From: Hymenobacter persicinus
GTDB lineage: Bacteria > Bacteroidota > Bacteroidia > Cytophagales > Hymenobacteraceae
NCBI RefSeq assembly: GCF_004167665.1
Contig: NZ_SEWE01000032.1
Coordinates: forward strand, 1-64,000
Direction: 5' to 3'
Length of the DNA stretch: 64,000 bases
Below the pieces are notes generated by a model. It saw nothing but the letters and a program-made list of their open reading frames with translations, was not told the origin of the DNA and did no database searches. The translations under genes were made by a program, and so were the position numbers. Shown here piece by piece: positions 49,220 to 55,505 of this stretch; position 1 is the stretch's first letter, and the number at the start of each line of letters is the position of its first letter.

Positions 49220-50176
49220 TTAAAACAGCGCCGCGGCCACCCGGCGGATGGATTCGGACTTGCCCATGGAGTAGTAGTGCAGGCAGGGCACGCCGTGGGC
49301 CATCAGCTCCCGGCTCTGGTTGATGCACCACTCAATGCCAATCTGGCGGGCCGCCTCGTTGTCGGGGGCCAGGTGCACGGCTTCGGCCAGCTCCTCGGGG
49401 ATGTTGAGGTAGAAGGAGCGGGGCAGCATGGTGAGCTGGCCCTTGGTGGTCAGGGGCTTGAGGCCGGGAATGATGGGCACGGTGATGCCCGCGTCGCGGC
49501 AGCGCTTTTCGAAGGCGAAAAACTGCTCGTTATCGAAAAACATCTGGGTCACGATGTACTCGGCGCCGCGGTCCACCTTGTGCTTGAGGTAGCGCAGGTC
49601 GGCGCCGTAGTTGGGGGCCTCGAAGTGCTTTTCGGGGTAGCCGGCCGTGCCGATGCAGAAGTTGGTGGCCCAGGTGTCGTCCTGTTCCTCGTCGAGGTAC
49701 TCGCCCTTGTTGAGGTTGGCTACCTGCCCGATCAGGTCGCAGGCGTAGCTGTGGCCGTCGGGCTCGGGCTTGAACATTCCTTCGCTCTTAATCGGGTCGC
49801 CGCGCAGGGCCAGCACGTTGTCGATGCCCAGAAAGTGCAGGTCAATCAGGGCGTTTTCGGTTTCCTCCTTCGAGAAGCCCCCGCAGATGAGGTGGGGCAC
49901 GGTGTCCACGTCGAAGCGGTTTTTGATGGCCGCGCAGATGCCCACCGTGCCGGGCCGACGACGCACGGTTTTCTTCTCGAGCAGGCCGTTGGGGTGCTGG
50001 CGGTACACGTACTCCTCGCGGTGGTAGGTCACGTCAATAAACGGCGGCTTGAACTCCAGCAAAGGTTCGATATTCGAAAACAGCGTCTGGATATTCTCGC
50101 CCTTGCGGGGCGGCAGCACCTCGAAGGAAAACAGCGTCTTGCCGGCGGCGCGGGACAGGTGGTCGGTTACTTTCAT
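49220..50176 (-). CDS. metF: Methylenetetrahydrofolate reductase MetF
   Basis: A 318-residue flavoprotein that reduces 5,10-methylenetetrahydrofolate to 5-methyltetrahydrofolate, the methyl donor used by MetH. Motifs: TLFSFEVLPPRKG (residues ~14-26, with the catalytic Glu), DVTYHREEY, NVLALRGDPIK (~120), FCIGTAGYPEKH (~173) and EYIVTQMFFDNEQF (~207). Length fits the family. It follows metH in the same direction with a 189-base spacer filled by a palindromic element. The riboswitch upstream of metH may therefore also control metF if the transcript continues. Confidence 0.96.
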   Translation of the reverse strand: MKVTDHLSRAAGKTLFSFEVLPPRKGENIQTLFSNIEPLLEFKPPFIDVTYHREEYVYRQHPNGLLEKKTVRRRPGTVGICAAIKNRFDVDTVPHLICGGFSKEETENALIDLHFLGIDNVLALRGDPIKSEGMFKPEPDGHSYACDLIGQVANLNKGEYLDEEQDDTWATNFCIGTAGYPEKHFEAPNYGADLRYLKHKVDRGAEYIVTQMFFDNEQFFAFEKRCRDAGITVPIIPGLKPLTTKGQLTMLPRSFYLNIPEELAEAVHLAPDNEAARQIGIEWCINQSRELMAHGVPCLHYYSMGKSESIRRVAAALF

Positions 50177-50365: not shown

Positions 50366-54082
<3,717 letters not shown>

Positions 54083-54119
54083 ATCGGCGGCTTTCCAAAT
54101 AAGGCGGTACTAAAAAGCC

Positions 54120-54131
54120 TATCCAGAAAGA
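54120..54131 (-). promoter_or_regulatory. metH: Candidate expression platform of the SAM riboswitch
   Basis: In the RNA this reads UCUUUCUGGAUA and is perfectly complementary, over 12 bases, to UAUCCAGAAAGA in the 5' strand of the aptamer (54246-54257 on the plus strand), so it can compete with the P1/P2 fold. GGCUUUUUAG follows directly. The mechanism is inferred from pairing alone. Confidence 0.5.
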
Positions 54132-54153
54132 GCCGCGCGGGGCGAGTCCTGTT

Positions 54154-54259
54154 CTTATCTTCTTCCAGAGCCGGAGCTGTGAAATGGGAGTTGGCACCTT
54201 GTTTTATTTCAGGTTGCCAAGACGTCGTCGGGCCCAGTCCCTCGGTCTTTCTGGATAAG
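54154..54259 (-). ncRNA. SAM-I riboswitch (S box)
   Basis: On the minus strand, 5' CUUAUC and 3' GAUAAG close P1 (54254-54259 and 54154-54159). Between them stand the S-box core segments: CCGAGGGACUGGGCCCGACG, then GGCAACC, then GGUGCCAACUCC, the SAM-binding and kink-turn parts. It lies 72 bases upstream of metH and about 3 bases after the predicted transcription start. It is expected to lower metH expression when S-adenosylmethionine is plentiful. The match to the known aptamer is close. Confidence 0.93.
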
Positions 54260-54267
54260 TAACATCA

Positions 54268-54299
54268 CGAAGATACAGCAGGAATTTGCGGAATCCAAT
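54268..54299 (-). promoter_or_regulatory. Promoter of the metH riboswitch transcript
   Basis: On the minus strand ATTG (54296-54299) is followed by 20 bases and then TATCTTCG (54268-54275), one mismatch from TAnnTTTG. The inferred start point lies a few bases before the riboswitch. Confidence 0.6.
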
Positions 54300-54365
54300 T
54301 TTGAAAGAACCGGGGTATTCCGCTTTTTCGGCTGTCCTTCGGGCCACGGTTTACGCCGGCCCGCC

Positions 54366-55505
54366 ATGCTTCGTATTGCTATGCTACCTCCCCTTCGCCT
54401 GCTCCTGTGGACTGCCTTGCTGCTGCTGCCCGCGGCGCTGCTAGGGCAGCGCCTGCCCAAAACGGCCGGCGCCGGCCTGCGGGCGCAGTACTACGACGGC
54501 AGGAACTTCGAGAAGCTGGTACTCACCCGTCTCGACCCGACCATCGACTTCAACTGGACTCTGGGCCCATCCAGCCCCAACAAGGCGCCCCAGCAGTTTG
54601 TGGAGCCTGGTCCGGGCGTGCCGGCCGAGTATTTCTCGGTGCGCTGGATGGGCCACCTCTACGCCCCGGTCACCGGCCGCTACACCTTCCGCATGGTCAG
54701 CGACGACGGCATGCGGGTGTGGGTGGGCGGCAAGAAAGTCCTGAGTTCCTGGCACGACCAGGCGGCCACCGAAGTCACGGCCGAAGTCGACCTAATCGGG
54801 GGGCGCTACTATCCGCTGCGGGTCGAGTACTACCAAATGCAGCGGGACACCCGGGCCCTGCTGGCCTGGCAGCGCCCGGATGAGCCGTCGGCCGAACCCG
54901 CGCCGATACCACCTGCTTTTCTCTACGCCGCGCTGCCCCCCACGGCCAAGCCCATTCCGGTTCCGGCAGCCGCGCCGCCCGTGGCAGCGAAGAGCTCGGG
55001 CGGGCCGGCACCCGCCAAGCCTGCCCTGGTACCCGCTCGGCCACCCGCCCCGAAGCCCACGGCCGTACTGCGCCGCCGGCCCGCCGCCGTAGTGCCCACG
55101 CCAGTGCCCCGGCCCGCTGCTGATAGTGCTACCAAGTCGTTGCCCGATTTATCGGCCCTGAGCCGGGGGGCGGCCGTTACGCTGCCCAACCTGTACTTCA
55201 CCCAGAGCACGGCCGCGCTGCTACCGGCCTCGCGGCCCATGCTCAACCAGCTGGCCCGCACCCTGCAGGCCCAGCCCGCGCTTCGCCTCGAAATTGCGGG
55301 CCACACCGACAACGTGGGCGAGCCGGCCCTGAACCTGCGCCTGTCGGAGCAGCGGGCCCGGGTGGTGCGGCGCTACCTCGTGCAGCAGGGCATCGATTCG
55401 GTGCGGCTGACGGCCAAGGGCTACGGCGATACACGCCCCGTGGCCGACAACCGGGACCCGCAGCAGCGGCCCCGCAACCGCCGGGTGGAAGTGGTGGTGC
55501 AGTAA
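54366..55505 (+). CDS. PA14-OmpA fusion protein
   Basis: A 379-residue exported protein. Signal peptide PLRLLLWTALLLLPAALLGQ; PA14 domain (~residues 35-175: GLRAQYYDGRNFEKLVLTRL, then YFSVRWMGHLYAPVTGRYTF, RMVSDDGMRVWVGGKKV); a Pro/Ala-rich linker (~180-255); and an OmpA-type peptidoglycan-binding domain (~265-378) with LPNLYFTQSTAALLPAS, LEIAGHTDNVG, LSEQRARVVRRYL and RPRNRRVEVVV. PA14 domains bind carbohydrates, and the OmpA domain binds the peptidoglycan stem, so the protein probably links an envelope-facing sugar ligand to the wall. An ATG at 54381 would shorten the signal slightly. It is divergent from metH. Confidence 0.88.
   Translation: MLRIAMLPPLRLLLWTALLLLPAALLGQRLPKTAGAGLRAQYYDGRNFEKLVLTRLDPTIDFNWTLGPSSPNKAPQQFVEPGPGVPAEYFSVRWMGHLYAPVTGRYTFRMVSDDGMRVWVGGKKVLSSWHDQAATEVTAEVDLIGGRYYPLRVEYYQMQRDTRALLAWQRPDEPSAEPAPIPPAFLYAALPPTAKPIPVPAAAPPVAAKSSGGPAPAKPALVPARPPAPKPTAVLRRRPAAVVPTPVPRPAADSATKSLPDLSALSRGAAVTLPNLYFTQSTAALLPASRPMLNQLARTLQAQPALRLEIAGHTDNVGEPALNLRLSEQRARVVRRYLVQQGIDSVRLTAKGYGDTRPVADNRDPQQRPRNRRVEVVVQ

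Follow-up and report, generated by a model that had tools for sequence, protein, structure and literature searches.

The methionine synthase gene (metH) of Hymenobacter persicinus is preceded by a SAM-I riboswitch that probably controls its translation through a contest for one short downstream strand (strand B), which can pair with the 5' strand of the aptamer (strand A) or with the stretch immediately before the start codon (region C). In the mechanism that we propose, B would invade the aptamer when SAM is absent and pair with A at the 5' end of the mRNA, taking up P1, J1/2 and P2 together. This A:B duplex would dismantle the aptamer and leave the region upstream of the AUG open, so that metH could be made. 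With SAM present, A would be locked in P1 and P2 and B would be free, and the free B, together with the bases that precede it, would fold onto region C and repress metH. We infer that SAM is bound, which way the switch works and that it acts on translation rather than through Rho or RNA decay; the logic of a translational off-switch fits a methionine synthase gene. All coordinates (Table 1) refer to the window, the whole stretch of 64,000 nucleotides that was analysed (positions 1 to 64,000 of contig NZ_SEWE01000032.1).

Table 1. Features of the metH leader in the window and the evidence for each
Feature	Position	Strand	Basis
Bacteroidota-type promoter	54268..54298	-	TTG at 54298-54296 and TATCTTCG at 54275-54268
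SAM-I riboswitch aptamer (RF00162)	54152..54261	-	68.9 bits against a cut-off of 44.4; model positions 1-108
Strand A, UAUCCAGAAAGA	54246..54257	-	Most of the P1 5' strand, J1/2 and the P2 5' strand; exact in 118/118 genus metH leaders
Strand B, UCUUUCUGGAUA	54120..54131	-	Switch segment; complements A and in part the region before the AUG; exact in 106/118 genus leaders
Candidate sequestor hairpin	54085..54139	-	Fold of 54151-54080; 54139-54117 would pair with 54105-54085, ending 2 nt before the AUG
Region C, just upstream of the AUG	54083..54102	-	-18..+3 opens when B is withheld in 115/118 predicted folds
metH, methionine synthase (1238 aa)	50366..54082	-	NF007024 (2092.7 bits) and TIGR02082 (1752.2 bits), both above cut-off

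The aptamer, its gene and its promoter

The covariance model of RF00162 matches 54261-54152 on the minus strand over its full length and above its gathering score; the window has no other Rfam match at the gathering threshold, and its genome contains four SAM-I matches in all. Read from the sequence, P1 consists of CUUAUC (54259-54254) and GAUAAG (54159-54154), and the end of the RF00162 match lies 69 nt from the AUG of metH. The gene that follows the aptamer thus belongs to methionine metabolism, and the claim of an earlier note, made from the DNA letters, that a complete SAM-I aptamer stands before metH is borne out by the RF00162 score and by both MetH protein models. On these sequence grounds we regard the element as a real SAM-I riboswitch, predicted to bind SAM, with an expression platform that is not the textbook one. 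Downstream of metH and on the same strand is a methylenetetrahydrofolate reductase gene (window 49220-50176; TIGR00676, 300.6 bits), and upstream lies a divergent gene (window 54366-55505, plus strand) with an OmpA-like C-terminal part, for which the matches shown are below their cut-offs.

The same note had placed a promoter so that transcription starts just before the aptamer, which proved right in substance. A sigma-70 promoter was rejected, as the sigma-70 scan gave none, and a Bacteroidota-type box with an upstream TTG is present instead. Across Hymenobacter the box TAnnTTYG ends 8-11 nt before the UAUCC of the aptamer in 117 of 118 metH leaders, compared with 2 of 317 control windows, and the available text of a study of flavobacterial promoters gives the consensus TAnnTTTG at -12 to -5 (PMC9723704). 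Transcription would therefore start near 54263, which would put P1 at the very 5' end of the metH mRNA.

For these and the following comparisons within the genus we took one metH leader from each genome with a metH match (118 of 120 genomes), the two genomes lacking a match being 81% and 83% complete. This set leaves out a second, broken metH copy in one genome (G062:C1:3531734-3532054), an N-terminal fragment that is 85% identical to the intact gene, has one internal stop and lies about 1.7 kb from it.

Pairing of strand B with the aptamer 5' strand

Strand A (54257-54246) and strand B (54131-54120) are perfect complements over 12 nt, and a single G.U pair would lengthen the duplex to 14 nt (54259-54246 with 54131-54118). 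When the downstream stretch of the window was shuffled 200 times, no shuffle matched the native complement of A, in agreement with the 12-base complementarity pointed out before. Since A covers most of the P1 5' strand, the joining bases and the P2 5' strand, the A:B duplex and the aptamer are mutually exclusive.

All 118 genus metH leaders have the SAM core by pattern and an exact A, and B is exact in 106 of them. The other 12 differ by a single base in B, six of these substitutions being compatible with a G.U pair and six leading to one A.C mismatch. When 81 leaders less than 90% alike were aligned, nine columns of B were invariant and the other three nearly so, the mean column identity being 61%. 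Because A and B hardly vary in Hymenobacter, the genus alone cannot show covariation between them.

To see which part of the aptamer has a partner, we moved 14-nt windows along it and compared the best downstream match with that in shuffled sequence. The 5' end has such a partner in all 38 genus representatives (mean z -7.12; at most 1 of 40 shuffles equalled the native one) and in 22 of 41 order leaders (mean z -2.7), whereas for the 3' end the values are -0.25 (2 of 38 representatives) and -0.5 (5 of 41 order leaders). As a negative control, the 5' end of a second aptamer type in the same genomes gave a mean z of -0.17 (3 of 69). Switching by the P1 3' strand was thus rejected, as a downstream partner is confined to the aptamer's 5' end. 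We also rejected a ribosome-binding site inside the 3' side of P1, an arrangement that the accessible part of an earlier survey notes for one SAM-I type (PMC2258182), as this strand (54159-54154) ends 71 nt before the AUG.

The two states are close in predicted energy. With A:B enforced, the fold lies on average 4.6 kcal/mol below the aptamer plus hairpin among 117 leaders (lower in 102; L179 was dropped from this set) and 4.1 kcal/mol below it in the window, both figures excluding the ligand and tertiary contacts. Left unconstrained, 74 of 118 leaders are predicted to fold with at least 8 of the 12 A:B pairs, and in the window A:B is present in the fold of one stretch and absent from that of a slightly different one. 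Such close energies fit the needs of a ligand-driven switch.

Covariation outside Hymenobacter

The wider comparison took in 110 SAM-I leaders, found in 60 genomes of the order and drawn from the 126 matches listed (30 from the first loci collected and 80 added to them); six leaders without the core pattern were retained. By the sequence of P1, 41 are of the CUUAU type and 68 of the UUUAU or AUUAU type, with one (L306) unclassed but counted with the second type in the strand scan and in the Cys-run count below; the CUUAU class includes three leaders (L268, L307 and L318) that look closer to the second type. Among 80 named metH loci examined, 22 have the SAM core by a pattern that can miss some. 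L035, from Hymenobacter, was excluded from the outside-genus sets, and L036 and L037 were dropped from the covariation set as having a P1 without UUAU by pattern. Of 60 outside-genus leaders of the CUUAU type, 44 have the MetH motif, the sole basis on which an order leader is called metH here, and removal of two with less than 40 nt before the chosen start (L087 and L233) left 42.

Three variable positions were masked while B was being located, and Watson-Crick pairs at these positions were then counted and compared with permutation. The masking and the cutting of leaders at the start codon were adopted because a first covariation table had been contaminated by the coding motif of MetH. In the 42 outside-genus metH leaders, 75 of 126 masked pairs are Watson-Crick against 56.2 ± 4.0 when permuted (0 of 5000 permutations as high, the tree being ignored). 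A wider set of 74 leaders, 72 of which entered the count, gave 117 of 216, where permutation gave 94.2 on average and reached the native count in 0 of 5000 cases (again ignoring the tree); 13 of its members are related genus leaders of the metB type, the only other SAM leaders of the genus in these statistics, and many are not cut at the start codon, the cut having been made only where the MetH motif lay within the 150 nt used. The J1/2 position illustrates the pattern, with G:C in 11, C:G in 9 and A:U in 7 of the 42 metH leaders (27 of 42) and no Watson-Crick pair in 15. Two states occur even within a family: f19 has G:C in L235 and L264 and C:G in L296, L316 and L320, and f1 has C:G in Hymenobacter and A:U in L265.

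Duplex energies gave a similar picture. For metH leaders outside the genus the native A:B duplex has -16.20 kcal/mol, compared with -12.57 ± 0.42 when strands are re-paired between leaders (0 of 10,000 as low, the tree being ignored), and the signal is gone when A is reversed (828 and 2519 of 10,000 re-pairings). Against shuffled sequence the pairing stood out at the 5% level in 41 of the 60 outside leaders, hence not in all. A simple cross control ranked the native partner first among 21 in no more than 5 of the 41 order leaders, a weak result due to B strands being alike between genera. Overall, the comparison supports an A:B pairing that is conserved and that covaries outside the genus, and so the suggestion that this long-range pairing is part of the expression platform. 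The earlier note had named in advance what should count against it, a B segment that is unconserved or does not covary in homologous leaders; neither was found.

A possible second partner before the start codon

The earlier note did not contain a second possible partner of B, region C, which may give B its translational role; this pairing is supported within the genus and weak outside. When B was withheld from the folds of 118 leaders, the mean unpaired probability of -18..+3 rose from 0.36 to 0.57 (0.51 with a shuffled B), with a rise in 115, and in the window from 0.21 to 0.42 (0.28 with a shuffled B). The start codon itself was unchanged in these predicted folds (0.53 against 0.54). The case for B:C is a comparative one: with 17, 38 or 81 genus representatives, each of 10,000 re-pairings did worse than the native pairs, and the genus alignment has clade-specific bases before B and before the AUG (CGGCUCUU/AAGAGCCG, GUUUUCUC/GGAGAAAC and UUUCUUUC/GAAAGAAA).

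Other measures are less clear. Folded alone, 54151-54080 has -23.7 kcal/mol (z -1.56), which 12 of 200 shuffles equalled and which by itself is not striking. RNAalifold on a MAFFT alignment of 81 genus segments gave no conserved hairpin (-0.05 kcal/mol and three pairs, none compensatory), perhaps, we think, since the 3' side was not aligned by structure. Outside the genus the B:C duplex is weak overall (-6.56 kcal/mol against -5.33 ± 0.34 for re-pairings; 3 of 10,000), and 7 of 36 leaders have a strong duplex of -12 kcal/mol or lower. Region C of two outside leaders (L048 and L320) contains a copy of CAGAAAGA from A, which makes A and C look like rivals for one strand.

Alternative explanations

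These mixed results for B:C bear on a reading that we consider unlikely but worth weighing, in which A:B is the real SAM-free state and B:C is incidental, the output coming from some other element that opening of the aptamer exposes or hides, through Rho loading, RNA decay or a genus-specific hairpin. It is favoured by the support for A:B far beyond the genus next to so few strong B:C duplexes there (7 of 36), by a start codon that is not freed when B is withheld and by a lone 3' hairpin that is unremarkable against shuffles. Against an incidental B:C pairing, however, stand the native pairs of the genus, which outdo every re-pairing at all three levels of redundancy, and the pair sets that differ between its clades. 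Still harder to credit is the idea that something other than pairing conserves B (it could be a protein or small-RNA site, for instance) and that its match to A is a by-product; this we hold to be extremely improbable. Near-invariance of B in the genus agrees with it, and the genus alone cannot separate such a site from pairing, but in leaders from elsewhere changes in one strand are matched in the other, and both f19 and f1 contain two states.

Transcription attenuation, in which A:B, or B with the U-run that follows it, would act as an intrinsic terminator or antiterminator, is in our view very unlikely. The U-rich run reported after B is indeed present in the window, as it is in several outside leaders, and a terminator-like hairpin occurs in the genus leaders of the metB type. 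As a conserved feature, though, the run did not hold up, since no more than 44 of the 118 genus metH leaders have at least five U after B, and 49 of 118 have at least four. No terminator-like site was found on the minus strand of 53800-54700 either, and on these two counts we rejected a U-run terminator for metH and with it the U-run platform that had been hinted at. A terminator formed by A:B would moreover, as we reason, turn metH off at low SAM, which is the wrong logic for this gene. We therefore retain translational control by competition between A and region C for strand B as the probable mechanism.

Other SAM-I leaders

Leaders of the second aptamer type often have an open reading frame of about 20-50 codons that lies about 10-15 nt after P1 and ends in a run of 3-7 Cys codons. 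It was found in 29 of 69 leaders of the second type and in 2 of 41 of the first (0.0 expected from shuffles), with examples at the order-level loci L010, L017, L239, L258, L288 and L291. A leader in the H. persicinus genome itself (L031, G000:C6:30550-30642) has a tiny open reading frame, MGCCCCC, read by eye. These leaders look as if a cysteine attenuator had been fitted with a SAM riboswitch, an arrangement that we did not find in the literature searched.

In eight genus leaders (L008, L009, L012, L018, L020, L025, L029 and L030) and in L002, a terminator-like hairpin (GCTCTTC..GGAAGGGC and a T-run) precedes the B strand, and a rival hairpin lies across it. Judging from its start, the gene that follows them may encode cystathionine gamma-synthase or a related protein. 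At one locus (G120:C17:575715-576241; L002 and L265) two SAM-I riboswitches are arranged back to back at a distance of about 310 nt; metH follows one of them on the minus strand, and a metB-type gene follows the other on the plus strand.

Comparison with known systems

SAM-I riboswitches in Bacteroidetes, and translational control as the commonest form outside Firmicutes, are already described in the accessible text of earlier surveys (PMC2258182, PMC2211319). We did not find the capture of the aptamer 5' strand in the literature searched, the coverage of which was incomplete and from which other wording could escape. On balance we think it likely that this SAM-I type in Bacteroidota is a distinct lineage of expression platforms, in which the 5' end of the transcript would do the switching and a downstream segment would recapture P1, J1/2 and P2 together, with the region before the AUG competing for that segment in Hymenobacter and some others. 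As the aptamer is complete before segment B is made, such a platform would be better suited to control near equilibrium than to control that is purely co-transcriptional. Expression platforms usually vary too much for comparative study; here the aptamer and its platform share a pairing that can be followed through many genera and that uses an unexpected strand, which makes the mechanism of Bacteroidota SAM-I riboswitches directly testable with a few matched changes. The covariation of A:B bears on a 2026 study of RF00162 which, in the portion available, used a SAM model built on leaders with terminators and reports that covariation of the aptamer with the platform was not significant (PMC13273304).

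With the SAM-I (S-box) family RF00162 the metH leader shares a full-length aptamer, above the cut-off, before a gene of methionine synthesis, but its platform recruits the 5' strand of P1 with J1/2 and P2, while the P1 3' strand has no partner. A SAM-I aptamer likewise precedes the met operon of Xanthomonas campestris, whose riboswitch is translational and, when SAM is bound, hides the start region in a hairpin; that platform also binds uncharged initiator tRNA, a feature of that system, and capture of the aptamer 5' strand is not described for it in the sections available (PMC7270179). A mechanistic parallel may be drawn with the P1-switched, or strand-exchange, riboswitches, which like the element described here place one aptamer strand in two mutually exclusive pairings. 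The available text of a 2024 review makes the P1 3' strand their third characteristic (PMC11477058). Those riboswitches use that strand and the metH leader would use the 5' strand, which, if true, reverses the textbook rule of switching by the P1 3' strand.
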